A stretch of DNA of 64,000 bases from Cymbomonas tetramitiformis (taxonomy: Eukaryota > Chlorophyta > Pyramimonadophyceae > Pyramimonadales > Pyramimonadaceae): positions 1 through 64,000 of the forward strand of contig LGRX02035486.1 in the NCBI GenBank assembly GCA_001247695.2, given 5' to 3'. The position numbers were made by a program, and so were the translations under genes. A model generated the notes under the pieces. It had not been told where the DNA came from. It saw nothing but the letters and a program-made list of their open reading frames with translations, and searched no databases. This document shows positions 30,901-52,699 of this stretch, one piece after another (within the stretch, counting starts at the first letter, position 1; each line of letters begins with the position of its first letter).

Positions 30901-33900
30901 TTTCATCCACGACACCCCTGCTCCTGGTAGTGACGTACTGCAGTTGACCATGCCCGTCGTGGTATGTGTTTGGCCACAACAGCCGCCATGCCACCCTGAT
31001 ACGGCTTATTTGAGGATGGCCAAGATTTGCCGAATACTATCAGCAACCCTCATATTCCGCCAGGCAAATGCAACCAATGTAGACCACGCCCCCCGCCTTC
31101 GAGAACTCGACCACCGCAGTGACAGGGTCACGATCTTGCCTTTGGGGTGGGCATTTCCATAACAGATCACTTGCAATTATTATCCGAGTGAGGCGCGTCT
31201 ACGGTCAAATGAAGATGGAAACAGTAGAGCTGCAACTGGGAATCAGGTGCTGAAAGACCCACCTGCCTCTTGCAGCTTACGGTCCACGCAAAAGAAGTCA
31301 GTGCCTCGGCCAAACACCTGGCCATGCACAACAGGGCTCTTTCAGCAGCCTCTTGAGGCAGATTGCTTGTGTCATACTGTTGGGCATCTTCGGTCTTCAG
31401 CCCTCGGCAGAACCTGGAGCAGCAGCCCGTGAATGGCCTTTTGCACAATCTGAATACTCTCACAGAACGCACTGCGCAAACCAATAGCCAGCCCCGGCCT
31501 CACACCACGGCATCACAGGCCGCAAGGCTCACCCTTACTACGCTGGGTGCGTCAATGAGCCGTCCCTGGGCTCATCTCTCCACCAGGGTGTATGTGCTAT
31601 CCGTCGGGACAAGGGGCGCAGATAGATTTCTGCAGGTACTACATACCGCGGTGCAGAATGTGGCCTGGCCGACGGTGGCCGCCTTTTTTATGATGTACTC
31701 CTTCTCCTCTCGGCTCTGGCTCTCCTTCAGGACATTCTTGGTTGCCACCCGCCTGGAGTAATTGGACTGCATGAACTCTTCGAGCCACAAGGCATCCTTG
31801 AAGAGAGTGATGACAGCTCGCCCACCCGCCACTACCTTCCTTACCTGTAGGGAAGGGGGTTGGCAGCAGGGCTACATCCCCTGAATATGAACTACAAACT
31901 TCCTGTATCTGAGTGCGTGGCAGGTCAGAGGGAAACGCCTCATTGGAAAAGGTTAGTATTTAGCGAACAGCACACAGCGGAGGGTACTCACATGTATAAG
32001 CCCAGTGACCATCAATTGACTTGCTTTGCCTCCATGGTGTGTACAAGAAAATAAATGGTGAAACTGATTAGGAGATTGGGAGAGCGGATCAACGCGCCTC
32101 CTCGATGATAGCTTGGAAGAAGGCGTCTTTGGAGGCCTCGACGATGATGGGATTTGTTTGGGACTGATCGAGGAATCTAAAATTGCTCTGGCCATAAACC
32201 GAAGGCATGCGGGTATAAATGTGGATGGCGTATTGGTTTAGAATCTGCCACTCGTGCACCCCGAGGGCCTCCACAGTGCCTGACACCCCGAGGATCAACG
32301 CAGGTGTTACGCTTGCGTAAGAGAACTGACCGCAGGGCACTCTGAGCTGGAGCGCCTTCGCCAGTGTGGTCTCCGGGTTCCGAAGGGTGCCCTTAGAGGC
32401 TTCGCTGAGATAGGCAAAGGCAGTGCGGTAGCCCCACACGACATCATAGTTGATCCCGTCCATCTCCTGGAGAAAAGGAAACAATGAGCACCCCTCTTCA
32501 AAATAGGGGGTGAATATATGCCTCAATACATACATGCTATTGCATCCAACAAAATGTTCCGCACGCGGAAGCGGAGGCAAACTGCCCTCTTTTGTAGAAA
32601 TGGAATTGGAGGCCTGTTGATTCGGACATCCTCTGCCAAGAATTATATTGTTGCGCTCCGCAGTGTGCTGTGACCATGATCTTAGGAGCTCTCTCTGCTT
32701 TATCCGAGCATAATACAGTTTTGAGGCCTTCCGAGTATGTCAGGCCTCAGACTACCGTCCTCTAAACCGTTGAGGGGTCCGGGAAATCTTAGTAGAACTA
32801 CCACGCATAGCGTTATTTGATGTAATTTATTCTTGTACGAGATGTTTGCAAACAGGCGCACAGAAAAAACTGTCAAAATCGGGGACTCCAAATCGAAGCA
32901 AAAGCAACGATGAGGGGTGATCAATTAAGTCCCACCTTGTACCCAATGCGGTTGTGGGTGGTGTCGAAGTGATATGCCGGGGTGCTGAACTGCTTCAAGT
33001 CGCTGCACATGCATGCGAGCTCCTTTTCAAGCAGGAAGTGCCACTGCGGGAACTGTCTCAGCAGCGCAAGGTACGCTGGCAGCTTTTGCGCAGCTCGCAG
33101 CACCTCCCTGGGCCTCCCGGCCTGGCCGCGCAGCTCCCAGATCGCGCGCAGAATGGCCGACACCTTTGGCTCTTCGAGACATGCAACCTGGTTGTGGCAC
33201 TTTCCGTAGAAGTTCTGTCCGAAGAACACGTCAACCTCGTCCACGAGAAGGACCTCCTCCCCTTGGCCAGGGCTTGGAGGCGCCACGTCGGTCTTCACGG
33301 TTCGTGCGAGGCAATGCGACCCCCCCGCGGAGGAGTTCTCAGCTTTAACCGGGTCGCGGGTCAGAGGCTGAATGGAAGCGTTGCATGCGCTGGAGGGGAT
33401 TTGACGTCGACCAGCCGGGTTGTCACAGGTACGTGCACAGCCACCTTCGCTGTCATTGGTGGAAGAGGTGGCAGTAGGTGTGTGCATAAGCTCGAGGGTC
33501 ATGTTGCGCAGGTTACCCTTGGCAGCAACGGCGTCCTCGCTGTAGGCCGTGATCTTGCTGTACGTGACATAGCCAGTTACCCCGAATGCATAGAAGAGGT
33601 CCTGGAAGAGGTCTCGGTCTCGGTCGCTGAGGTACTCTGAGTAGCACACGCACCGGACGCGCAGCCCGAGCAGCCCGAGCAGCAGCGCGCATACACCCAG
33701 GATGATGGACTTGCCCTCACCCGTACGAATCTGCATCAGCTGATTCACCAGGGCTGGGTCATCCGTGCCCAAGCCCATCAGCTGCAGGATGGTGAGGACC
33801 TGGATGTTGTGTGGCTTCAGAAGCACGCTGCTATGGCTTCTTGGAGCTTCGTCACCGCTGCGGTCGCTACAACTCTGCAGCGCGAGAGGGCCGCCAGCCA

Positions 33901-36900
33901 GCGCGGCATCTGAGAGGCGCGTGAAGCTGTCACCTGATTTGGAGATGGTGAAGTAGGCGAAGACGCCACCAAGGAGCCCTGGCACCGCAGCCTTGACCTC
34001 TCGGGACCACTGGCGGACGCAGCATGGACGAAGCTTCGAAGCCTTATCCACCACTTTCTGCGCAATCTCGTCCAGTTGCAGCTTCCCGACGCGCCACATG
34101 CTGAAGCACTCATCATACTCTGCTTCATAGGTCTCAAAGCCAGACCGCAGCCTCGCCTGTCCGATAGTAATGTCTTGGGCAGAGTCTGGAGATGTTTTCC
34201 CCACCATCAGCTTGCTGGTCACCTCTGCCAAGGTGGCATCAACCGATTTTTGCGTCACTTCTTCGTTCCACTGCAGAGTCACCACGTCCTTAAAGTGCCT
34301 AAAGGTGTTCACAAGCACGTGCCCGATGCGCTGGTCTTCGGATGACACTGCCTCCCCGCTCGGGTCCCTCGCCCCAAATATCCCCCGCTCCAGCCCCATG
34401 CCGAGCTGGAACAAGTAGTGGAAGCCCCACGGGAGAGCCTGGCAAGCATCCAGCACGTTCTCAAGGTTCAGCATGGCCATGTCCTTGAACCGCGGAAGAT
34501 CGTCCACGATGTATCCCAGGTGAATCAGCTGCATTGCCACATTGGTTATGTTTTCCTCCGCGTGTGCCTGGCTCCTGAGGAAGCCCCGGGTCTTCCCCGC
34601 CAGCGCCACGATCTCCTTCTCCACGCTCTCGGCAACTTGTGCAATGCGCTGGCGCCACCCGTCCGACCAGAGGTCATCGAAGGCGCTCAGCTGCAGTTCC
34701 ATCTGTGCAAGCGCCCCGAAGGCCTCATGCACCTTCTTCAGCTCGCGCCGCTCCCAGCTGACTCTCACACTGGCTCCGATTCCGCGAGCATGTTCCTTCA
34801 CAGCCTCGTGGACTGCTTGCCTTACGCGATCCACGTCAAATGGGGATGTCACCAATTCGCACAGCCGGTGTAAGTCCGCCAGCCCAGAGAGCAGTGCCTT
34901 GATGCGGTCATATGCCTGATCATCAAGAAGCTGGGCCGCGCGGTCCTTCAGCATCCGTGGAACTTGGCTGATCCGTGAGGTGAACAGCCGTGCCAGCTCA
35001 TCCGGGTACCGGGAGCGAATATCTCCACTCAGCAACGCCTCCTTGGCGCGCTCCACCTGCTGTTGCTTCGCAGTAGATCCTCCAGGACGGTCAGGGTGGT
35101 ATACCATACACTTGCAATGGTACGCCTTCTTGCACCCCGCCTCGTGGGTGCAGGGAGGCACCTCGAGCACCGCGAAGTGGATTCCCAGCTCGGCCAGCCT
35201 CTCCCCACCAAAGTGCGCATTCCGGAGCGCAATGACGCGCTGGAACTCGCGGTCGTCTGTCAAATCGGCTCCGATATCTTCACAGTAGACCGCGAGCTCG
35301 CTGGAAAGAAACTGTCCGACGCCGCGCAAAGTGCTCACTGACGCCGAGGCGGCTTCGAAGTCGAACTCGTCCTGTAACTGTGACTCTAGCCGCTTCACCC
35401 GGGCCTCGAGGGCGCAGCACATCTCCCCGTGCAGGTGAGCACAGCGCTGCTTCACCCCGGGATGGCTGAGGGTCAGCCCAAGCACCAGGCTGTGGAACCG
35501 TGAGAAGAGCACCCGTGTCTCATCAATGCGGTTGCGGCCAAGCTCCAGCACGAGGTCAGCAGCAAGCTGGGACAACCGCTGAGCAATCTGCGTGCACACC
35601 ATCTCGGCGTCGGCATCATCATGTAGGTGGCTGCCAAGTTGCTGCAGAATGCATTTCAGGGCGCGCCCCAGCGCCCCTGTTGGGCCGTAATTATGTTTTG
35701 CCATATGACAACGCGCCTCCTCGACCATCCCAGAGACCCGCTTCTGAAGCTTCTCCCGCAGACGATCGTATTCCGATGTGTAGAATGGCAGTTTGTGTAG
35801 AAGGGCGCTCACGGGCCTGGAGCTTTCGGACCTCAGTGCATTCAGCTGCCGGACCCAGCGTGCAAGCTGCTCGTGATGCATAAGATACTTGCCGTACTCC
35901 TTCATCACCTTCGCGTCACTTGCCCGGAGCTCTTTCAGTTCTTGCAGGAGGTCTACGCCTCCCAGCTGTGGCACATGCTCCTTCAGGCCCTTGTCCCACT
36001 CCCGCTTCCAGTGCTCGAACACCTCGACTGCTAAGGTAAAGATCTCACGCTCCTTCGCCACGTCGCGTATCTGGATCAATACTTTGCTCAGCTGATCTCT
36101 AAGACGGGCCCTGACCTCGTGGTAGTGCTCCTTCACCACCTGCTGGGCGGGACCGTGCGCCGCCGCCTTCAGACTGCGCAGCGCAGTAAAGAGCCGTGGG
36201 GATGCAGAGCGGTCTTGCAACTCTGAGGTGCTGTAATCAACATACTCTTTCAGCTCACGGTCTAGCTGCTTCAAGCTGCACTCAGCACGAGATATGACTG
36301 CACTCGCACGCTGCTTGTCGTGGGAGTTGAGCAAGCCCGCGACATCCGCGTGGTACCCCTTCGCGCTGGAGAGTTTGACAAAAAGGACTGGATAGCTCGA
36401 TGCCACTTCTGGATAGCTCCCTGCCAACTCGAGATTCGAAAGCAGCCCCTGAAAATGCTCGGCCACGCAGGCCTCGAGCATCTGCACTTGGTCTGCGAGG
36501 GCCACTGATGGCGTGTGCTGCTTCAGCGTCTCGCCAAGCTTGCCGAGCTCGTCCCTTGCCTTCTTCAACAGTGCAATCGCTGTCACTATCTCTGCGCCAG
36601 ACGCTATCTGCGCATGAGCTGCGGAGATCTTCGCCTGCACGCTCGATGCGAGCAACCCCATGATGCGGGTAAAGCGCTGCCTGCTCAGGTTATCCTGTGA
36701 CTCCGCAAGAGGCTCGAGGAGCTCCCTGATCCCCGCAAACTCGAACGCTTCTATGTTCTTCTGGACCTCCTCGTCCACCCGCGCCCGTTTGATTTCCAGC
36801 ATGCTAGTTAGATAGTCCAAGTCCCTGCTGGCCTGATGCTTGAGGTGCGCATCGAGCACGCGTGCCATGGCAAATTTCTCCAGGCGTGCCTCCACTTCCT

Positions 36901-39900
36901 CCCAGTTGTCCGTGTCACCAAGTTGCTTGCGGATTGCATCTGCCTCTTGCGACAGCTCCGTCTGCAAGGCGCCGCACAGTTCATTGTAACTGGGAAGCCC
37001 TTTCACCAGACTGAAGAGCGAGCGCTGTTGCTCCCACTTCCAAATCGCGTCCAGCACCGTTTGCTTTGTGCTGTAACTCCCTTGGGCACGCGCAAGCTCC
37101 AGGACCGCGGTGCGGTAGCGCTGCATAATTCCATGCAGCTTGCCACACAGTGCCTGCACATCGGCTGCCCTCGGCTGGACTTGCGTCAGCCCCTCGCAGG
37201 TGGCCAGGGCCGCATCCACGACTGCTGCCTGTGCATCGCTTAGCTCGGAGAGATCTTCCGGAGCCGTCTCAAGCCACAGCTGCTGCCGCGCACACCACTG
37301 CATGATGAATTGCTCCACACCGTTGTTGAAGGCTACCCACGCCTCGGGAAGGCAGAAGCGTGGCAGGTGCTCAAGCTCGGATAGCTTGGGCTTCAGAGCC
37401 TCAAGCTCGGCGGCACACACTGCGGGGTTCTCTAGAAACCTCGTCAACCCCTGCAGCAGCTCGATCCCGGTCGCCAGGAAGTATTCGAAGTAGCGCGCGG
37501 CGAATGCACGGAGGCCCTCGGCAACAAAGCCGCGGCCTGGCGGGAGGAAGCCATCCAACCAGGCGAACCTTGCAAGGGTGATCAGTAGGGGCAGATGCCT
37601 CTCGGGGGAACCTAGCCCACCCCCTGCCATCATCTCGCGGTGAAGCAAATCGAGCTGCGAGACTCGTTCCTGAACCGTCTTCATCAGCAAATCGCAGGCA
37701 TCCGTGAAGATGTTCTGGCCCATCGGATCCCTCTGCTGTCGGTCAGTCCGCGCATCGAGCCATCCCCGGAGCCTCTGCATGCGCATCTCCAGGGATGCCT
37801 CCAGGCCCCCCTCTAGGATTGCGGCCTTCACTGGATTCGCCTCCCGGAGCAGCTCGCTATTTGCCTCCATGAGCACCATGTGCCAGCTGTCACGCGCCAG
37901 CACTGCGAGGTGGGTAGGCACCATGGCACCATCCAGCGCATCAAGAAATGCCTCAAGTCTCTTTACGCAGGCCACGAAGACGCGAATGCGCACGGCAAGT
38001 TTGGCGAGGTCAAGACTCAGTGCTGCTCCCCGCTCCCCATGGAGCACCGTCTCCTGCATCTCAGACCTGTGGATGGCCAGAGTTGCCCGAGGTCCGGTCC
38101 AGTCTACGTCCTCAAAGTTGACCTCCCCTTGCAACGCGGCTCGAGCAGTCTCGACATCTGTTTTCATGACATGCTCCACCTGGGACAACGGGATCCTTTT
38201 GAATCTCAGCACCATGAACAGTCCTTGCTCATCTTCGGAGTGTGGAGCGAAGAGCGCCCGAAGGATCTGCCACCACGTCAGGCAACTCACAACACGAGCT
38301 TGCTTAGTGTCCAATCACGGGACAATGACACAAAATCCAAACATTTCGGCATTTGAGGGACATGCCTACAACATTTAATCGTCACGGCTCCACCAACTGC
38401 CTGTCATCCAAAAATCAGAAGATCGGAGGCGGCTTTGGGCGTGGTACGCCCCCTTCACATTTCCCACAAGGGACCTGGCGCCGCTTAACTCGGGGCACAC
38501 ACAACAAGGCGAGTTGGTGCACATGCCAGCTTGGCCATACACTGTATGAAAGCGTATCTTCATGACTTGACTGGCAAAGCACCGGATCAGGCACGCCGAG
38601 CATCAGCAATGCTCTCGGGAAGAAATCTACGACTTCGTGAAATGCTGCAGTGGCAGTGCATTCCATCCGGCATGCTCACCTGTGCTGCCACCCCTTCCCA
38701 GGCCGCCTCCACGCCATTGGTGGTGATCCCAACCTCGCGCAGTTGAGGCAGCACGTTATGCACCTCTTGTACACACTCCATGGCGTCCACCATCACCGCC
38801 GCATCGCAAGGGCATCCCACTGTCGACCTGGCGACGACCCCTGCAACATACTGGTCAAGTGCCACAGCGGCGGAGGCGGCAAGATGCTGCCAGCTACACT
38901 CAACTGCACCCCAGGCGAGCAGCTTCGAGAGCACACGGAGGTGGGCCTGCAGGTCGGGCCTCTCGGTGCCTCCCTTCAGAGCTCCTTGCAGCGCTTTCGA
39001 CATCTGAGCTAGGCGTTGGTACACATGCGCGAGCATCTCATCCGGCGCAGCTCTCTCCCCGTCAACAGCGCTGCCAAGCCCAAGCCCCTCGAGCACCCGC
39101 ACCGAATGGAGCAGGTGCAGTACAATGCGTGCGCTGGCCTCTCCGAACTCCCCAGCGTCGGGCACCGTCCCGATGTTGATTAGGCGGGAGGCGTCCTCCC
39201 GGGCCTGCCAAGCGGCCTCATTCACGAGCTCGGTGGCCTCGGAGTGCGCCTCCCGCACAGAATCCAGCTCGAGGTGCCGGCGTAGGTACCCAAGCGCCTG
39301 CGCCAGCTCGCCAATCTGCTCTGGATGCCCTGCTTGCAGCGCCATCCTCAGTGCGCTCAGCATCCGCCGGAGTTCGATGGCAACGGCGCTAGCATTTGCG
39401 GCTGTTATCCCGCAGCGCACCACGTCCCGCGCAGCCGCGCCCACGGTTGCCCCTATTGCAGCCGCGGAGCCGTCAGGCAAGGGAGCGAACAGCTCCAAGT
39501 TATCTCTGATGAGCCTCGAAACATCGGTGAGCTCCGGGTGAAACACATCGACGAATGGGAAGCCTTTCTTCAAACAGTGCTCCAACCACTTCAGGATCCC
39601 GCCCGCAATCCGGTCGCGCTTGTCGGTGCCGTTCAGGGTGTCCACCACTAACCCGTGCAGCGTTTTTCGGGCGTGCTGTAACTCGGCGGAGGGGCCCCAC
39701 GGCACTGCCGCGCCGTCAGAGGCATCTGCATCGCTACTCACCAGATTCCTGAGGATGCCCGGGTGTGAGAACAGGAACGTGAATGCGAGCTGGTGCTGTT
39801 TGAACTGCTCTGGCTGATGAGCGCCCACAAGCGTGGACACCAGCTTCACCAGATTACGGATTGCACCGCCCTTACACTCGAGGAATGAAGCACAGCTGAC

Positions 39901-40413
39901 AAGCACCACGAAGCGGAGACTGCGGCACACGGCGGCTACCTGCTGGATCGAGATTGAGGTGGCTATATCCACTTCCATCCCTGCTGTGTCCTCGTACCCC
40001 GCTGAATCGAGATAGACCACCGCTTCCTCGTCCTCAGGGTCGTTGCTACCCCCAGAAGTACGCAGATAGTGACTGATATGCTTGGTCTGCGATTGCTGAT
40101 CATGTCCAATGCAGAACCCTTCCAGTGGTTCGATGGCTTCGAATACCTCTTTGACTGCACCGTTGTATACTGACTGGTACGAGCGACGCTGCAGCTTCCG
40201 CCCTGCAATGGCCTGCACCAGAGTTGACTTGCCAGAGCCAGTCTTACCAAGCAAGATCACGACGCGCTTCCCCACGGCATGCTGCAATGCCGGCTCCGCA
40301 GCTGCAACCAGCGTTCCCAGCAGCTTGAGATCCAAAAGTGGTGTCCATGAGGTGACAGATGAGAGATCATTGTCGGCATTGGTGTCGTCGTCGTCGTCAG
40401 ATATGTCGTACAT
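27977..40413 (-). CDS. Giant GTPase / J-like / SecA-type motor / vWA fusion protein
   Basis: Minus-strand model in phase: 40413-38680, 38302-32936 (acceptor could be 38266), 32466-32094, 31831-31647, 31317-31263, 30895-30816, 30687-30445, 29710-29398, 28383-27977 (TAG). About 2,918 residues. Exon 1 has Walker A GKTGSGKST (56-64) and a DSAG switch (136-139), typical of dynamin/GIMAP-like GTPases, with no clear NKxD. A helical stretch of over 1,500 residues follows, with HPDRPGG near residue 1645 recalling a J-domain. The SecA motor has RTGEGKS (about 2105), LLVDEVDVFF (about 2263), SVTPALILGVSGT, TAVFGRGTDF, GGMHVIQTF and QIQGRTARQG. The last two exons form a vWA domain with MIDAS DATGS and later LLIGDAPPH. 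I know SecA-like giants of this kind from ciliates and foraminifera, usually misannotated as 'SecA'. A cytosolic motor or scaffold role is inference; I see no signal peptide. Confidence 0.85.
30681..30776 (-). repeat. Tandem duplication of an exon start and its splice acceptor
   Basis: Two copies of a segment that on the minus strand reads GGGAGTGCRCCTCCTGCAGG then GTAAGC. The downstream copy provides the acceptor and first codons of the exon starting at 30687 (GKQGTYAMV). The upstream copy (exon-like start GKLGSYATM) runs into a stop soon after. Confidence 0.8.
38303..38679. other. Intron joining the GTPase exon to the helical/SecA exon
   Basis: The donor is CAG|GTGAGC on the minus strand at 38680/38679, after codons A-A-Q. 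Acceptor candidates are CTAAG| (exon starts 38302) and TGGCAG| (exon starts 38266); both keep phase 0. An in-frame stop directly upstream of the second exon means that exon cannot start its own protein with an ATG. This is the main reason I treat the two long frames as one gene. Confidence 0.7.
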
Positions 40414-43863: not shown

Positions 43864-43906
43864 CTGATATTCTGATTTATTGATATACCGGAAAAAAAGT
43901 ATCAAT

Positions 43907-44592
43907 TGTGCCAGGGGCACGACGACAGATGCTCGGAGATATGTTTTTGATTGAACGTGCAAAGGTACACAATTCGGATTTTTATAATATACTGGATCAG
44001 GGCCAGATTGAGGTACAAACGATAATTCGGTTCCGAGTTCTGAAGGCTAAACACTTCTCAAGTGCTCTACTTATTCACTCGTCACTCAGGTTGCAGGGTC
44101 AACCACTCGAGAGCCGATGTCACACTTCGGCTCAACGTTCAGTTCCCGATCCGATCTCATTTCTAATTCCGATTCGTCATTCTCGATTCAGATGTTATGC
44201 CAACAGGCTGACACGATGACTGCCCCACAGTACTGTCATACTACTGTACTGTCATACTGTCATAGCGTCATACTGTCATACTGTCATAACCTTAATATCT
44301 GATATTCGATTTCATTGTCTTTTCAACCCCGATGCGAATCTGACCATTCTTCGAGGGTCTGACTGAGTTCCACGATGACACCCCCCACAGTACTGTCATA
44401 CTACTATAGTGTCATACTGTCATACTGTCATAGTGTCATAGTGTCATACTGTCATACCCCGGACATCTGGTATTCATTCTCATCGTGATTTCAAGCCCAA
44501 TCTCACTGTCATCGTGCCAATCCCAGATTACCCCCGATGACACACATACGGACGCATAGACATATCGGCTCACGCTGTGCCTCCGGGCACAA
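43907..44592 (-). repeat. Gypsy 3' LTR
   Basis: 686 bp, bounded by TGTGCC and GGCACA on the plus strand. It contains a TGTCATAC microsatellite (about 44225-44290 and 44395-44455) that varies in copy number against the other LTR. Confidence 0.92.
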
Positions 44593-44610
44593 CTCTCCCC
44601 CCCTTAGGAG
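44593..44610 (-). promoter_or_regulatory. Polypurine tract of the gypsy element
   Basis: Minus strand reads CCTAAGGGGGGGAGAGT directly before the 3' LTR, the expected primer site for plus-strand DNA synthesis. Confidence 0.75.
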
Positions 44611-44779: not shown

Positions 44780-47700
44780 CTAAAGCGGGTCTTCAGTGTC
44801 GCGGAGGCGTAAATGTCGGAAAAGTTGTCGTAGCAGTAGTGCTGGTACGGGGTATACACTCGCAGATTGACCTGCTCCAGTCTGCTGCGGGTGAGGTCCA
44901 AGCTGAGCAGTCTCTGGGTGAGCACCGGTTGCCCATCTGCACGCACACGGTGTCGAAGTAGTACAGCGTAGCAGGGGCGAGGGTGGTGCTGAGTTCGTCC
45001 ATATGCAGGTGGGTTTCATGTACTGCGTACCATACATGCAGTAGGTACACACCAGCGGTGGGGGAAGCTGGCGCATCATAGGGCGAAGCCGTAGCGCGTT
45101 AGGAAAGCGACCTCTGGGGTTTTCCATGAACCAATGTTTTGGCTCTAGGTAGTCAATGATCTGCAATGCTCGTCGTACGATTTTGTCAGCCTGGGGAAGG
45201 TCAGGGGGTCCACCAGTGGTGCGCGCTTGACTGTACTGCCTGCAGGGGGGACTTGCCCAAATAACATCGAAGAATCCAGGCGGGTATTGCCTGTAGTCCC
45301 ATTGTAGGATGTCACACACATGAGTGGGTTGCCAGATATGCCCGGAGTCGAGGGTCACCACTGAGGCGGAGGGGAAGCAATTTAGGAATTCCCTCTCTAC
45401 TGAGCCAGTACCGCTGAAAAGTACGAGAATCCTGGGCGTGCGGGTTGTTTTTGCCTGTATTGCCAGCAGCTCTGTCACCAGTGCCAACGACCCATCTTCC
45501 ACGCGCTCCTGGCGTTCCCACGGCAGGGGGATATCATCTTCCATCTGTTCGAGCTGGTCCAGTTCATCGCAGGGATTGGTGATGAGGTGGGCCAGTGTCA
45601 TTCCGGCTTGAGCGGAGTGGCGGCCACGCTGCTCGCGTCGCCGAGTGGCTTCGTCGCGGACTTGCGCTTCCATGTGCAGTCTCGCTTGCTCGAATTCACG
45701 AAGTTGTTGAAGTGGACTTCCGCGTTCAAGTTTGTCACGCGTTCTCCATTGGTCGTGAGCTTTGGAGTAGCCAGTCCAGCGAACCTTCCACTCTTCCACC
45801 TCCTTTCCTCGAACAGACCGCACTCGACGTGCAAGGATACGCTCAACGTGTGCTTCCTTCTGACCGTCCACTACCACCTCTTCAGGTACTGCTAGGTGAT
45901 CGCGTGCGGCAAAAGCATCTTGACCGTTGGTGTACGGTTTGAGGCGATGTTGAGCGAACACGTCGTGAATCCGCCAGTGAGGAGGGAGGCGTAGGCGGTA
46001 GGCTACTGGAGCTCCTCTGTCGGCTTCGGGCATGGTCATCTGTATATCGCTGAAGAAGCGTTCGGTCACAGGAACTGGTCCATGCCAGCGCTTGGTCAGT
46101 TTCCTACAGATGGAGCGATCCATCACCTTCTCCGTAAGGTGCTTCGCCTCTATCCAGACCAGATCTCCAACAGCATACTCCCGCTGCCCGTGTCTGCGAT
46201 CAAACTGTTCGCGCTGTCGCTGTTGAGCCAGCTCCAACCGCTGTCTGGCGTCCCGCAGCTGCGACGAAAATTTCACGGCCACTTCGTGTGCGGTGCCTAC
46301 TCCCCCTGTTCGTCGTCCAGCGGTGGACTGTGCGGCCTCCAGGAAAAGGTCCAACTGCGACAGCGGCGAGAACCCGAACACCAGTTCAAACGGCGTGAAG
46401 CCAGTAGATTCACTCCTGGAGTCATTGATCGCGAACTCCACGTTAGTGGTGAACAGATCCCAGTCCTCCACATTGGCGTCAACAAAGGACCTGAGCATGT
46501 CCTCAATAACCCTGTTGCTGTGTTCCGCCTGGCCGTCAGACCGAGGGTTGTACGGCGTGGTGCGAGCCACTTTCACACCCATCAGTCTCATGAGTTCCTG
46601 CCAGAAAGCATCTTGAAACCGCGGGTCACGATCAGAGACAATCTTCATAGGCGCGCCATGTAAGCGCCACACCGAGTCAAAGTAGATTCTGGCCACCACA
46701 GCTGCAGAGCTGTCGCCGAAGTTCATTGGCACAACGTGGACCATCTTCGTCAGCTTGCAGGTGAAGGCCACGAAAGCATCATTGCCCCTCTCCGATACCG
46801 GCAGGCCGGTGACGAAGTCCACCGCGACATCCTGCCATGGCCTGTTCGGGATGCTGTGAGGGTTTAGCAACCCATCCGGGTAAGTTCCCCGCGGTCTCAC
46901 TGATTGGCACACTGCGCAGGATGCAACCCAGGTGCCCACATCTTCCGCGGCACCACGCCAATAGAAGCGTCGCAGCACCCTCTCCAGAGTCTTGTCTCGC
47001 CCAGTATGGCCCGAGGACAATGACTCATGAGCATGGCGAATCACTACCTCTCGAAGTGGAGAGTCCTCCCCCAGCACCAACTGATATCTCCCAGCTGCGG
47101 TCCTCCAAACCACTTCACCCACCAGTCTGAAGTCCTGTAGGCATTGGTGTGGTGCCGCCTTCACTTTCTCCCGCAGCGAACGAAGTGTCCCCTCTCGGGT
47201 GTACTCCGCCTTCAACGCACGCAGGAACTTTGAGTCCGACTGCTGGGAGGATGCGTCTCTGAAGGCTGCTGCCTCACCTGTCCTTATCACAGCGGGGGCC
47301 GTTCGCGGGTGCCTCACGCGTGCCGGCTGTGGTTTGGCGGGAGGGGCGTGTACTATCAGAACAGGCCAACGAAGGTCGAAGGCCTTCCCATCTGGGTTCT
47401 CGAAGAACTGATTGGGCTCGCCCTTATCATCGTGAGTAGGGATGACCTCCACGATCTGCATATTGGCCTTTCTGAAAAGTTTGCGCCACGCGGGGAGTTT
47501 GGACTGGTGATCTGGTAGGACGAAGACTGCTGAGGTGTTTTCTGGGTCTGCCTTCCATTCTGCGATATACTTGTTCAAAATCGCCTCCACCGTAATGTGC
47601 TTGGAGTTATATGGAGGGTTACACCAAACCCGAAGGCCCCTCCATTTCTCTGAAAGGCAGTCTGTCCAGAATCTATCCGCCTGTCTGTTGCGGCCGCCAA

Positions 47701-50700
47701 AGTCACAACAGGCGTCCACATCGAAGGGTCCAAACTTCTCGGCGTACTTCGAGGAGTACTCTGCTCGGACACGCCAATTCTGTGAGTCTTCGGGGGGAGT
47801 TTGCCGTTTTTGCGGGTGAAGGACCGGGGATGGAGCTGACTGCTGGGGCGCCTGCTGCGGGGATGGTGAGCTCACTGGCACCTTCTCAGTGGGCGCCTCC
47901 AATGCATCAGCTCGTGATGGCGTTCGCGTCTTCGGTGACGCCAACTGTGGAGGCGCTGGGGTCGTAGGGGCTCTTCCAGCGCGTGACATGCTCCTCGTTA
48001 TCCTTATCTGAGGTGGAGCTCTGTCAGGGGGTTGGTGTGGAGCTTCTGTCGGCTTCGCGCTATCAGCTTCAGGCCAGTCAGGCATGTCGAAGTCGAGGTG
48101 ATCCTCCTTCATTCCCTTATAGAGCTTCGGATTAACGAGAGCGATGGTCTCCCCCATGTCCATGGCCTGCTCTGCCACGGAGAGGGTTTCCACTGCTGAG
48201 AGCCAACAGTCAATTGTCTGGGCCCAGTGAGGATGAGCCGCGGGTGGTGAGCTGGAGAAGCATTCAGACTCCAGCGTTGCCAGAGGGTCTTTCGGCAGGT
48301 CTGAGGGGGGGTCGATCACTCCTGCCTCCTTCAACCCCTCGCGAACGTCCTTGTCTTTGAAGTCGGGTCTTCTGGACAGGGCGTCTGGTACCAGCAGCAG
48401 CGCTCCCTTGATGTACTCCATTCTCGGGACTCCCACCTCCACCAGATCCATGTACCAGCGTGCCTGTCTGCGGCTAAGCTCTCTGCCAGGTTCCATCAGC
48501 CATTCAAGGGGACGGTGATCACCCTGGATGCGGAAGTTGGTGAAGATGAGGTAATGCCGCCAGGTGACGGTGGTACAGTGGTGTAGAGCACCTAGCTCAC
48601 GCTCGCCGGTGTGGTAATTCTGCTCGGCGGCTGAGAACTGTCGGCTCTCGTATGCTATCACGCGCAGCCCAAGACCATCTCCATTGTCTTGCATAAGTAC
48701 TCCCCCAAGAGCGATGCCGCTAGCATCCGTCTGCACCACGAAAGGCGCCGTGCCGTCTGCGGCACCCTTAATGTTGGGCAAGGCGAGCACTGGCGCTGAT
48801 GTGAGGGCCTTCTTCAGCTCCTCGAAGGCCCACTGCTGCATGGGACCCCACTCCCAGGGTACGTCCGACTTGGTCAACCGGGTGAGGGGCTGAGCGATCT
48901 CGGAGAAGCAGTGGATGAACCTGCGGTAATACCCCGCTAGGCCCAAGAACTGCCTGACGTGGGTAACCGTCTCCAGCTCGGGCCAGTCCCTCACTGCAGC
49001 CACCTTGTCGTGTTGGGGTCTGCAGCCATCTGCGGAGATACAGTGGCCAAGGAACCGCAAGGATTTCTTCAACAGTTGGCACTTGGACCTCTTGAGGAAG
49101 ACGCCCTTCTCCCTGCATGTCAGGAGCAGTTGTTTGACGTGCTCGTAGTGCTCTGCAGCGGTGTTGCTGAAGACGACCACATCATCTATGAAGATCCGGA
49201 CAAATGGAAGATGGCCCAAGGCCCGCTGCATCCGTCGCTGGTACTGAGATGGTGAATTCTGCAGCCCCTGCGGCATGACCAACCACTCATATGACCCCAT
49301 TTGGGTGGTGAAGGCGGTCTTCTCGACATCTCCTGGTGCCATCGGTACTTGCCAGAAGCCATCCACCGCGTCGAACGAAGAGAAGAACTTCGCACCCTGC
49401 ATCTCGTCGAACATCATCTGGATGTCTGGGAGAGGATACTTGTCCTTAACTGTCTGGCGGTTGAGGAGCCGATAATCGATCACCAGTCGCAGCTCCTTGG
49501 GGTTCCCGGGTTTAGGGACCATCAAACAGGGAGCTGCATAAGGACTGGAAGAGGGTCGGATGTAGCCCTTGGACATCAGAGTCTCCACGCGTTCTCGAAG
49601 TTGGTGGAGTTCCTCTGCGGACTTCTTGTAGATGCGCTGGCAGGGAGGTCCCTTCTTGCTCAGCTCAGGGTCCAGGTTAATGTTGGCTTCATCTTGGGGG
49701 TCATGTCTGAGTCCATCGATGTTCGGTAGAGCAGTCGTCATCTCCTTCTTGTACTCCTCTCCCCAGAAGTCCTGAAACTTGAGGGTCCACTCAGGGCTCA
49801 CTTCTGCATCTTCAGTATCCGCAGCGGGTTCGGCGTTCTCAGAGTCGATAGCCGTGGCCGCAAAGGCAGAAGCAGTATCGTCGGGGGACTTCTCGGCCAC
49901 CATGAGCCAGGCGGGCTGTATCTCCGGGTCGTCATTGCCGCGTAGTTTCTGCGTCTCCGCATACACCAGGTACTTCTTCAGCTGGGCAGGGGTCAGGAAC
50001 ACCTCATCCACCAATCCCGCGCAGGCCGTACCCTTCGGAGACCTGTCCCCAGATGCTTTCCCAGGAGAACAGCCTGTGATGGTGACGCGATCCCCAATCT
50101 TGCCACTGCGGGACTTCCTGAGGAAGGAGACGGAGCCATTCCCTTCATAGCCCAAAGTGACAGGAGAGTGACTGCGCAGCCACCTTCCACCGAGGATAAC
50201 ATCCACCTGTATGCCCAGTGGCAGGATCCGGAGGGCAAGGGCGTTCTCCGTATAGGTGCCCGTGGTGGTGTGCGTGTTAAACTTGGCGTACGCGGTGGCG
50301 CCAGTGATCTTCACAGATCCATCCGCCAGGGTGACTCGCATCTCGGAGCCGGCTCGTGTTGTGAGGCCACATCGCTTAGCGCCCTGCTCCGAGATGAAGT
50401 TGTCAGAGGCCCCCGAGTTAATCAGCACCTTGACCGTGTGCCCTCTGAGGGTTGCGTAGAATACCAGCAGTAGCGGTCCTTCTTCGTCATGTGCCGCTGC
50501 AAGGGTACCCTCGATGTCGGTCTTCCACCGAACTCCCCCATCTGTGCGTATGCTTTTGCACTTGAGGTTGGGGAGGAGGTTGTCCGAGGCCTCGCGGCAT
50601 TCTTCCAACGTTTGCCTACACGCGGCGTAGAACTCCTCATCCAGCAAATCAACATCTTCAGGCGGATGACTGACGAGGTTGTCTGCACTCGCCGTCAGCA

Positions 50701-51635
50701 GGGTGCCCGCTGAGGTGCATTCGCTCGAGGTGGGGCTGACATGAGTGGTGTCGCTGGTGGTAGGGCTCACATGGGTGGTGTCACTGGTAGTAGGGCTCAC
50801 ATGTGTAGTGCCACTGGTGGTAGGGCTAACATGGGTAGTGCCGCTTACTGTGGGGCTCACGTGGGTAGTGCCGCTTGTTGTGGGGCTCACATGGGTAGCG
50901 ACACTATTGGTGAGACCGCCATGGGTGAGAGGATCCTCGTCATGCTGAGGGCTGCCAGCAGGGGAGTTGTGGGCGAGCTGGTGGGAGCTCTGGTGGTCAG
51001 TTCTCGTCTGAGGGGTCCCAGCTGCTGCCATCTGCTGGGTGAAGCAGAGCGAGTTGACCGAGGACTCCTCTTCCATCACCTCAGGGTCTTCAGCGATGGG
51101 GTGGCTGTCGAGACAGGGTGGCGCTTCATCCACTTCATGCGTTTTGACGGTGGTCATCTGCTGGGTGAAGCAAAGCGAACTGGGTGCGGAGGTCTCCTCC
51201 GCCTCTGAGCAGTAGGATGAACCTTCGGGGTTTCCTCCCGGAGTGGCCGGCGCGTTATCATGGTGCGAAGATGTAGTCTCTGTTGTGGGCTCGGCCAGCG
51301 AGGATGATGGAGGGGATGCTCCCAAGGGGCTGGGACCCAGCTTCCTCATCTTGTACTGGTGTACTGCGTGCAGACTGCACCAGGCGCCAGGTAAACCCAC
51401 ATCTCCCGCTGTCCCAGGCATCGTGCCCACTTCAGTGTCCAGGGTGCAGAGGGATGTCGAAGACCTCGCTGCTGCCCTTCGTGCGCCCTCCTTTTCCCAC
51501 AGCCTGCTACCTGGGGAAGAGTCTGGACTCGAAGTGGCGATTGCCTTTTGCTGCTCGGCAGGCGACAGCTCTCTCCAAGCCGCGTAGAGGTCGTGGGAGC
51601 TGGTGTTAGAGGATTCGGGGACTTGCTGGCGACCG
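44780..51635 (-). CDS. Gypsy polyprotein: Gag-PR-RT-RH-N6A-MTase-IN-chromodomain-C5-MTase
   Basis: Single open frame of about 2,284 codons up to the gap; the true start codon is in or beyond 51636-51655. Domains by position: Gag-like low-complexity region 51635-50480 with ten-residue repeats and no zinc knuckle; protease around 50430, where the active site reads LINSGAS (Asn for the usual Asp); reverse transcriptase about 49640-49040 with FIDDVVVFS; RNase H about 48830-48400 (QTDASG, GERELGAL, GDHRPL); Dam-like adenine methyltransferase about 47800-47340 (FDVDACCD, NPPYN); integrase about 47060-46330 (HxnH-CxxC finger, VDFVTGLP, SDRDPRF, QAEHSNRVIED); chromodomain about 45860-45690 (WKVRWTGY); cytosine methyltransferase about 45430-44780 (LVLFSGTGS, ASPPCRQYS, MENPRGRF, YPVPALL). 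The frame is intact, so the copy may be active apart from the protease residue. Confidence 0.93.
50730..50930 (-). repeat. 30-bp in-frame repeat inside the gag-like region
   Basis: Six or seven units encode variants of SGTTHVSPTT. It is a coding minisatellite in a Thr/Ser-rich linker before the protease. Confidence 0.9.
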
Positions 51636-51655
51636 NNNNNNNNNNNNNNNNNNNN
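51636..51655. other. Assembly gap (20 N)
   Basis: Run of N at the junction of the gypsy 5' LTR and the internal region. By comparison with the other LTR, about 15 LTR bases are missing, plus the primer-binding site and the gag start. Translation across it is meaningless. Confidence 0.98.
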
Positions 51656-52340
51656 ACGACAGATGCTCGGGAATATGTTTTTGATTGAACGTGCAAAGGT
51701 ACACAATTCGGATTTTATAATATACTGGATCAGGGCCAGATTGAGGTACAAACGATAATTCGGTTCCGAGTTCTGAAGGCTAAACACTTCTCAAGTGCTC
51801 TACTTATTCACTCGTCACTCAGGTTGCAGGGTCAACCACTCGAGAGCCGATGTCACACTTCGGCTCAACGTTCAATTCCCGATCCGATCTCATTTCTAAT
51901 TCCGATTCGTCATTCTCGATTCAGATGTTATGCCAACAGACTGACACGATGACTGCCCCACAGTACTGTCATACTACTGTACTGTCATACTGTCATACTG
52001 TCATAGCGTCATACTGTCATACTGTCATAACCTTAATATCTGATATTCGATTTCATTGTCTTTTCAACCCCGATGCGAATCTGACCATTCTTCGAGGGTC
52101 TGACTGAGTTCCACGATGACACCCCCCACAGTACTGTCATACTACTATAGTGTCATACTGTCATACTGTCATAGTGTCATAGTGTCATAGTGTCATAGTG
52201 TCATACCCCGGACATCTGGTATTCATTCTCATCGTGATTTCAAGCCCAATCTCACTGTCATCGTGCCAATCCCAGATTACCCCCGATGACACACATACGG
52301 ACGCATGGACATATCGGCTCACGCTGTGCCTCCGGGCACA
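51656..52340 (-). repeat. Gypsy 5' LTR (its inner end lies in the gap)
   Basis: Direct repeat of 43922-44592. Visible differences include GAGA/GGAA, one T deletion, two A/G changes and extra TGTCATA units. It ends GGGCACA before the target duplication TCAAT. Confidence 0.92.
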
Positions 52341-52699
52341 TCAATTGATGACCAAACTTTGAATATCAGAATTATTGGTATCGATTGATTGATTAGGACG
52401 ACATATCAATATCATTCGATAGACCCCTCGGAATATCGGTATCAATCGTTTGACAGTGGTAGCATATCAATATCGAATGATTACCATCGTCGATTTGCGA
52501 TATCACTTGTATTTGATATATCAAAATATCAAAAACCGATCCGGGACAATGCAAAATCTGGGGCTTGATAGGCCCATAAAGACGATTACGAGTCCTGGTT
52601 CAGGACCTGTTGCACCCTCGATCGATTGATCGTTGATTATCTAGAAGTAACGAAAATTTAAGCAGGGTATCCGAGGGTATCCGAAGAGAGATCATCATC

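Follow-up and report, generated by a model that had tools for sequence, protein, structure and literature searches.

A Ty3/gypsy chromovirus of the green alga Cymbomonas tetramitiformis with predicted adenine- and cytosine-type DNA methyltransferase domains in one polyprotein

The window analysed here is a 64,000-nt stretch of contig LGRX02035486.1 (assembly GCA_001247695.2) of Cymbomonas tetramitiformis, to which all coordinates refer, and it contains a Ty3/gypsy retrotransposon of the chromovirus type whose Pol polyprotein carries two predicted DNA methyltransferases of different chemistry. The pol frame occupies 44780..51635 on the minus strand without interruption, its start being truncated by an assembly gap. 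Along this frame Pfam places, in order, a protease, a reverse transcriptase (RT), an RNase H, a Dam domain, an H2C2 integrase, a chromodomain and a C5 (cytosine-type) methylase. The original prediction, made from the letters of the stretch, had described one unbroken frame with Dam between RNase H and integrase and the C5 domain after the chromodomain, and both the Pfam order and the motifs agree with it.

The core of the polyprotein, encoded like the methyltransferases on the minus strand, is that of a Ty3/gypsy element. The aspartic protease (50144..50485; Pfam) bears the motif NSG in the window copy versus DSG in P0122, a database protein 98% identical to the window copy, and in two sister copies. 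It is followed by the RT (49001..49564; Pfam E 1.7e-31), with FIDD at residue 866, the RNase H (48452..48850; Pfam E 8e-27), the integrase (46388..47056), which is recognised through its H2C2 part (PF17921, E 5.8e-17) and its core (PF00665, E 6.5e-5, under the cut-off of that family), and the chromodomain at residues 1980-2033 (45689..45850; PF00385, E 1.2e-6). A long terminal repeat (LTR) pair with a target-site duplication, the protease-RT-RNase H-integrase order and a chromodomain C-terminal to the integrase place the element among the Ty3/gypsy chromoviruses, and the integrase together with the plain LTRs rules out a DIRS identity.

The element is bounded by the target-site duplication ATTGA at 52341..52345 on its 5′ side and by the same five bases, read from the sequence, at 43902..43906 on its 3′ side. 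The 5′ LTR (51656..52340, minus strand) begins TGTGCCCGG and loses its last bases in a gap of 20 N (51636..51655), which takes the place of the end of this LTR and of the first part of the internal sequence. The 3′ LTR (43907..44591, minus strand), a direct repeat of the former, reads TGTGCCCGG...CCTGGCACA and is adjoined by a polypurine tract, again a sequence reading (44592..44605, minus strand). Both LTRs start with TG; the CA end is read in the 3′ LTR, that of the 5′ LTR lying inside the gap. Because the two LTRs differ little (in 671 aligned bases 7 mismatches, including one that falls in the flank, with 36 gap columns besides), the insertion is taken as apparently young. Short tandem repeats with a unit like TATGACAGTA/TATGACACTA are present in both LTRs, in unequal copy number.

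A minus-strand open frame of 2335 aa (44780-51787) spans the 20 N, and its GTG start and its length are artefacts of the gap, since the sequence upstream of it is 5′ LTR and sister copies hold more internal sequence. Two sister copies that were compared have more than 1.5 kb of extra sequence at the gap site, comprising gag and the true pol start, and open frames of 2,515-2,537 aa occur in 18 of 44 scored copies of the window's family. Gag is assigned by reading of a CCHC motif in the frame upstream of pol in two sister copies; no Pfam gag match was obtained in P0122 or in the genomic copy L015, the gag region of the window copy being hidden by the gap, and a zinc-knuckle pattern scan of the sister family described below (family B) returned no match. 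In the sister copies L189 and L190, gag and pol share one reading frame, and the one TGA that stands between them (at 771-773 and 778-780, respectively), with C as its next base (TGA CTG), may be a read-through stop.

The Dam-type N6-adenine methyltransferase domain (~47348..47791, minus strand) is placed between RNase H and integrase in the same frame, with FDVDACCD at residue 1355 and NPPY at residue 1390. Its match to PF05869 lies above the cut-off (31.3 versus 28.1 bits, E 2e-7, profile positions 3-78 of 169), and it also matches PHROG 111, both families being named as DNA methyltransferases. A sequence search of solved structures gave no significant match for either Dam or C5, and fold comparison was therefore needed. 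For Dam, the structure model and fold comparison revealed a methyltransferase fold, with M.TaqI, M.BseCI and E. coli Dam among the matches, while Foldseek alone was weak (best E 6.3e-4). The score, the (N/D)PP(Y/F) motif and the fold assign the domain to PF05869, N6-adenine transfer being its predicted activity.

The second enzyme is a compact C5-cytosine methyltransferase domain (~44810..45442, minus strand) located behind the integrase chromodomain in the same frame, in which the motifs FSGTGS, SPPC, ENPRG and YPVPALL follow one another in that order. PF00145 scores the window copy at 20.9 bits (E 2.7e-4), just below its cut-off of 22, which P0122 passes with 24.5 bits, and PHROG 757, annotated 'DNA methyltransferase', matches residues 1-183 of 216 at 5.6e-15. 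By fold, the structure model matches DNA enzymes, DNMT3 being the best match. Motifs I, IV (PPC) and VI (ENx) in order together with the fold identify a C5 enzyme, for which cytosine transfer is predicted. Among 41 sequences C131, C156 and C162 are invariant and H171 nearly so (numbering of 44783-45430, minus strand); these residues could perhaps form a small metal site that replaces the target-recognition domain. Of the checks proposed with the original prediction, structure prediction gave a methyltransferase fold for both segments, and the Pfam profile search passed its cut-off for Dam in the window copy and for C5 in P0122 but not in the window copy.

The assembly of the window (851.7 Mb, 25,745 contigs) was searched for further copies; a published long-read Cymbomonas assembly measures 914.3 Mb and holds 84,319 LTR elements (PMC10675990). 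Copy counts from these searches describe best-scoring subsets, and are lower bounds biased to intact copies. With the Dam-to-C5 stretch as query, all 44 scored matches, the window included, span the whole stretch at 99-100% identity and 43 are stop-free (20,796 first-look candidates). With C5 alone, each of the best 150 of 8,291 candidates is complete and stop-free, and with Dam alone, 147 of the best 150 of 7,851 are stop-free. Family B shares ~84% identity with the window in RT, 62% in Dam and 69% in C5, and was sampled at 20 loci picked from 150 Dam matches for open frames of at least 2,380 aa. All 20 carry protease, RT, RNase H, Dam, integrase and chromodomain, and 19 carry C5, the defects being the loss of C5 in L020 and frame breaks in the C5 of L022 and L023 and in the integrase of L012 and L018.

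Protein databases extend this picture. Dam is present in 29 of 29 relatives (P0122-P0150; partial in P0146), and C5 is near-complete in 15, partial in 6 and absent in 8, which leaves 21 of 29 with Dam plus a full or partial C5. Four relatives without C5 end before or within the chromodomain (P0137, P0145, P0147, P0150), and the other four continue for 43-306 aa beyond it or are rearranged (P0142, P0143, P0144, P0146). The remaining 25 matches of the same database search (P0151-P0175) gave no Dam match. The best matches that carry a species name are C. tetramitiformis proteins, among them P0123 at 98% identity, and the pairing is visible in the precomputed Pfam annotation of P0122. Two proteins of source 'ena', P0148 and P0149, carry both methyltransferases at 37-39% identity to the window; in these, precomputed Pfam annotation also records a PHD finger, which in P0148 lies between Dam and integrase. 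Aside from these relatives, P0173 is a gypsy-type polyprotein for which precomputed annotation records MT-A70 (PF05063), a different family of adenine methyltransferases, and P0162 (source 'ena') is a copia-type polyprotein (RVT_2) that bears, toward its C-terminal end (residues 1305-1492), a C5-like domain lacking the SPPC pattern.

A chance capture or an assembly chimera private to the window copy would also yield such a frame, and a gap of 20 N does lie inside the element. The gap, however, falls outside the Dam-C5 stretch, and the linked pair recurs on many contigs, in the sister family and in metagenome proteins. With the pair present in every scored genome match, in 19 of 20 family B loci and in database relatives, a private origin is rejected, its probability being negligible. 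Both segments have a methyltransferase fold and neither is confined to this copy, the two points on which the original prediction could have failed. Dual elements occur in several families and in many copies, with the architecture and folds described above.

Selection was assessed in the window copy and family B. Between the window and family B copy L014 synonymous sites are saturated (synonymous differences per site, pS, 0.69-0.84), and the ratio of non-synonymous to synonymous differences (pN/pS) was therefore compared with that of linkers and complemented by within-family variants. It amounts to 0.13 in RT, 0.14 in RNase H, 0.19 in integrase, 0.25 in C5, 0.26 in the chromodomain, 0.31 in protease and 0.35 in Dam, against 0.58, 0.49 and 0.57 in the RNase H-Dam, Dam-integrase and chromodomain-C5 linkers, and 0.20 in the integrase-chromodomain linker. 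Within family B (16 rows kept for C5, 18 for integrase, 19 for RNase H and 20 of 20 for the other domains, short or odd-length domains being dropped), variants in at least two copies divide into synonymous and non-synonymous as 5:0 in Dam, 11:1 in C5, 7:1 in protease, 8:4 in RT, 11:0 in RNase H, 15:2 in integrase and 10:1 in the chromodomain. The corresponding singletons are 12:5 (Dam), 14:12 (C5), 13:9 (RT), 14:8 (integrase), 9:10 (chromodomain), 10:7 (RNase H) and 8:2 (protease), and no stop variants were seen in the family B domains. Dam and C5 of the sister family are under purifying selection and constrained much like the core enzymes, as judged from small counts in long-frame copies.

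The catalytic motifs are widely retained in C5: all 15 aligned dual elements have SPPC and ENP, as do 16 of 16 near-complete gypsy C5 domains, the 17th domain being that of the copia-type P0162. The Dam motif [NS]PP[YF] is found in 24 of 29 near-complete domains, the window included. Within family B, the Dam motif is kept in 20/20, SPPC in 16/16, ENP in 15/16 and KxTxIWT in 13/16.

A tree of RT, RNase H and integrase, covering 13 dual elements (P0149 was left out for lack of an RT match), unites the sampled dual elements in one clade (support 100/100), so that they share single-clade ancestry. It is adjoined by P0151 (88/78), which stops 12 aa past its chromodomain match, so only the absence of Dam is firm there. 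The C5 and pol trees differ by a Robinson-Foulds distance of 2, and in an approximately unbiased (AU) test on 12 rows (P0128 and P0149 left out) the C5 data accept the pol tree (0.43) and the Dam data accept the C5 tree (0.28). This points to Dam, C5 and pol having been inherited mostly together, perhaps with some exchange.

The best non-gypsy matches to Dam are six sequences of the same genome (L001-L006), called DIRS-like because the recombinase is weak by Pfam or read by motif only: PF00589 reaches E 0.0015 in L001, under its cut-off, and no Pfam recombinase match was found in the searched frames of L002, L004, L005 and L006, where it was read by motif. RT and Dam share one frame in L003 and L004 (Pfam) and occupy neighbouring frames in L001. 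Against the gypsy Dam model, DIRS-like Dams score 89-96 bits and viral Dams at most 49 bits. In a Dam tree with 14 gypsy Dams (P0128 was among those dropped, as were viral rows of 33 bits or less), the gypsy Dams form one clade (99/98), and a 100/98 branch splits gypsy and DIRS-like Dams from 32 viral ones. On the simplest reading, which draws on DIRS-like elements of this genome and on a tree without a fixed root, Dam would have moved from a DIRS-like element into the chromovirus and kept its place behind RNase H, and elements of the L001-L006 type are its probable source. A phage donor was rejected, the sampled phage and IMG/VR Dams being more distant than those of the same genome.

For C5, a tree reduced from 142 to 107 rows by the removal of near-duplicates, after partial matches and two thirds of the viral rows had been taken out, places the domains of 13 of the 15 dual elements in one clade with two Cymbomonas proteins that gene models show as standalone (Shimodaira-Hasegawa-like approximate likelihood ratio test, 96). 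Just outside this clade are P0148/P0149 and metagenome chromodomain-C5 proteins. Among the metagenome proteins near the gypsy C5 clade (P0010-P0014), P0010 and P0012 fuse a chromodomain-like stretch to C5, on short contigs. A viral donor of C5 was rejected as well: 80 kept IMG/VR loci are only 30-39% identical, and the 14 IMG/VR proteins in the tree lie far off, beyond a branch of support 100, with standalone metagenome proteins nearer.

Beside the element in the window are two further long minus-strand frames. One (32921-38314, 1797 aa) matches SecA-DEAD and, weakly, DnaJ in Pfam, and the other (38587-40413, 608 aa) has weak P-loop (STAND/NACHT-like) matches.

Several known systems resemble this element in part. 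KnitGypsy-Dnmt3 of Klebsormidium nitens is likewise gypsy-type with a C5 methyltransferase inside Pol under purifying selection, but the only enzyme described for it is a cytosine one (Dnmt3-related), its repeat structure is DIRS-like, and a chromodomain is not mentioned in the available text of its description (PMC5890265). The element described here adds Dam, has plain LTRs, and its compact C5 finds its nearest relatives among small proteins that are standalone or chromodomain-linked. DIRS elements with Dam (Goodwin and Poulter, cited in PMC6338049 and PMC5890265) share a PF05869-type Dam in Pol, and the DIRS-like frames of the same genome also have Dam behind RT; DIRS elements, however, use a tyrosine recombinase and split repeats (PMC5890265), whereas this element has a DDE-type integrase, a chromodomain, LTRs and an extra C5. 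SymbioLINE-Dnmt and SymbioDIRS-Dnmt3 are also multicopy retrotransposons of algae that encode a cytosine methyltransferase and are under purifying selection, but belong to other retrotransposon classes with a single chemistry each (PMC5890265). Chlamyvir-type chromoviruses of Cymbomonas, compared by description, share the Ty3/gypsy pol, the C-terminal chromodomain and the species, and no methyltransferase is mentioned for them in the available text of PMC10675990.

Cytosine enzymes are described in LINE, DIRS and gypsy elements, with Dam mentioned, in the text available, only in DIRS (PMC5890265). A review states in general terms that Dam and Dcm are encoded by gypsy and DIRS elements of green algae and charophytes, with no element carrying both named in its accessible part (PMC6338049). 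High-coverage Cymbomonas scaffolds encoding a cytosine DNA methyltransferase along with a chromodomain and RNase H have been noted (PMC5741210), as has a ParB-methyltransferase protein in a DNA transposon (PMC12477816); Cymbomonas is not mentioned in the main text of PMC12695648 and PMC9998398, as far as it was available. The original prediction had called two chemistries in one chromovirus a non-standard arrangement, and no description of both in one retroelement was found in the accessible portion of the literature searched, a scope outside which lie most subscription journals, bioRxiv preprints, supplements and Repbase. The host is a green alga of the Pyramimonadales, not a dinoflagellate or a charophyte. 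Methyltransferase-bearing retroelements are known, and the two-chemistry chromovirus lineage is, within this scope, a new variation on them.

Taken together, motifs, fold, conservation across families and purifying selection support the identification of a Ty3/gypsy chromovirus with two methyltransferases of different chemistry. The preferred reading, to which a probability of about 0.58 is given, is that a large chromovirus lineage, represented in the window by one apparently young copy, has in its Pol a Dam and a compact C5 that both probably act on the DNA of the element itself. New cDNA would receive N6-methyladenine (6mA, m6A) from Dam, which is tethered to RNase H and integrase, and the cDNA or a heterochromatic insertion site would receive 5-methylcytosine (5mC, m5C) from C5, which is joined to integrase and chromodomain. 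After cleavage of the polyprotein, Dam would travel with the cDNA-making or integrating part and C5 with the integrase-chromodomain part. The pay-off could be survival and quiet tolerance of new copies, via mimicry of methylated host DNA or shelter from modification-sensitive nucleases. Plant chromomethylases also join a chromodomain to a C5 enzyme in one polypeptide; the comparison concerns only how they work, these being host genes of another domain arrangement and not part of a transposon. A more specific version, tentative and less probable than the general one, has the two marks set at separate steps: a Dam of DIRS-like derivation would place 6mA on cDNA, and integrase-chromodomain-C5, as an element-borne chromomethylase, would place 5mC at heterochromatin. 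By copy number such a lineage could be a main source of DNA methylation in the host genome.

Several observations weigh against the preferred reading. Although the rest of the Dam domain is kept, its motif is changed or lost in five relatives, with NPPY replaced by SPPC/SPPH in P0128 and P0132 and absent in P0137, P0144 and P0150, and adenine activity therefore appears dispensable in some subfamilies. RNA enzymes are among the best fold matches of the Dam model, the AU test narrowly rejects the pol tree for the Dam data (0.047), and the family B sample was selected toward long frames. Lasting 5mC at CpG should pile up C-to-T changes there, and no such excess of singletons was found in the sister-family domains (16/509 CpG versus 58/1,579 other C sites), which implies either a non-CpG target, or a transient mark, or copies that are too young, or a C5 inactive on integrated DNA. 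The ACG context is highest (10/122), which among 16 contexts with small counts is not read as a signal, and the CpG observed/expected ratio, 0.73 inside the element versus 0.86 for the remainder of the window, is a mild depletion that alone decides nothing. In favour of the preferred reading, retrotransposon DNA methyltransferases of other algae methylate CG de novo (de Mendoza 2018, PMC5890265). Of the original interpretation, the dual-chemistry chromovirus stands; its purpose, self-marking that mimics host methylation and tunes silencing, stays a suggestion, the indirect CpG test being negative.

The same data bear on three other explanations. The two chemistries might serve to shield cDNA from modification-sensitive nucleases of the giant viruses, polinton-like viruses and bacterial prey present in the same cell rather than to tune silencing, which is judged unlikely, if the most credible of the three. 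Chloroviruses and similar algal viruses have both m6A and m5C, with matching endonucleases, and two chemistries would cover two kinds of nuclease. The lack of a long-term CpG footprint fits a transient mark, Cymbomonas feeds on bacteria and has giant and polinton-like viruses integrated in its genome (PMC10675990), and antiviral roles for retrotransposon methylases have been proposed in a review (PMC6338049); GATC, however, is not depleted in the element (23 observed versus 25.8 expected), though depletion is not required. Action of one or both domains on RNA, for instance m6A on the element transcript that evades RNA surveillance or regulates packaging, is still less probable: Dam belongs to families named for DNA methyltransferases, its model also matches M.TaqI, M.BseCI and E. 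coli Dam, and the C5 model matches DNA enzymes. Slightly more doubtful again is a structural passenger role, in which DNA binding or folding of the polyprotein, rather than methyl transfer, would be what preserves one or both domains; the five relatives with an altered or missing Dam motif agree with such a role, but it is opposed by the retention of the Dam motif in most near-complete domains, of SPPC/ENP in all near-complete gypsy C5 domains and of both enzymes' motifs almost throughout family B.

Retroelements with one DNA methyltransferase have been known, which raises the question of why they keep it. Two chemistries kept in several families under selection make this question testable, namely which mark is set at which step, and natural subfamilies that seem to be without the adenine enzyme offer a comparison of the consequences. 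The lineage also suggests that an accessory enzyme moved between two unrelated retrotransposon classes, and a natural integrase-chromodomain-methyltransferase fusion is now available for study.

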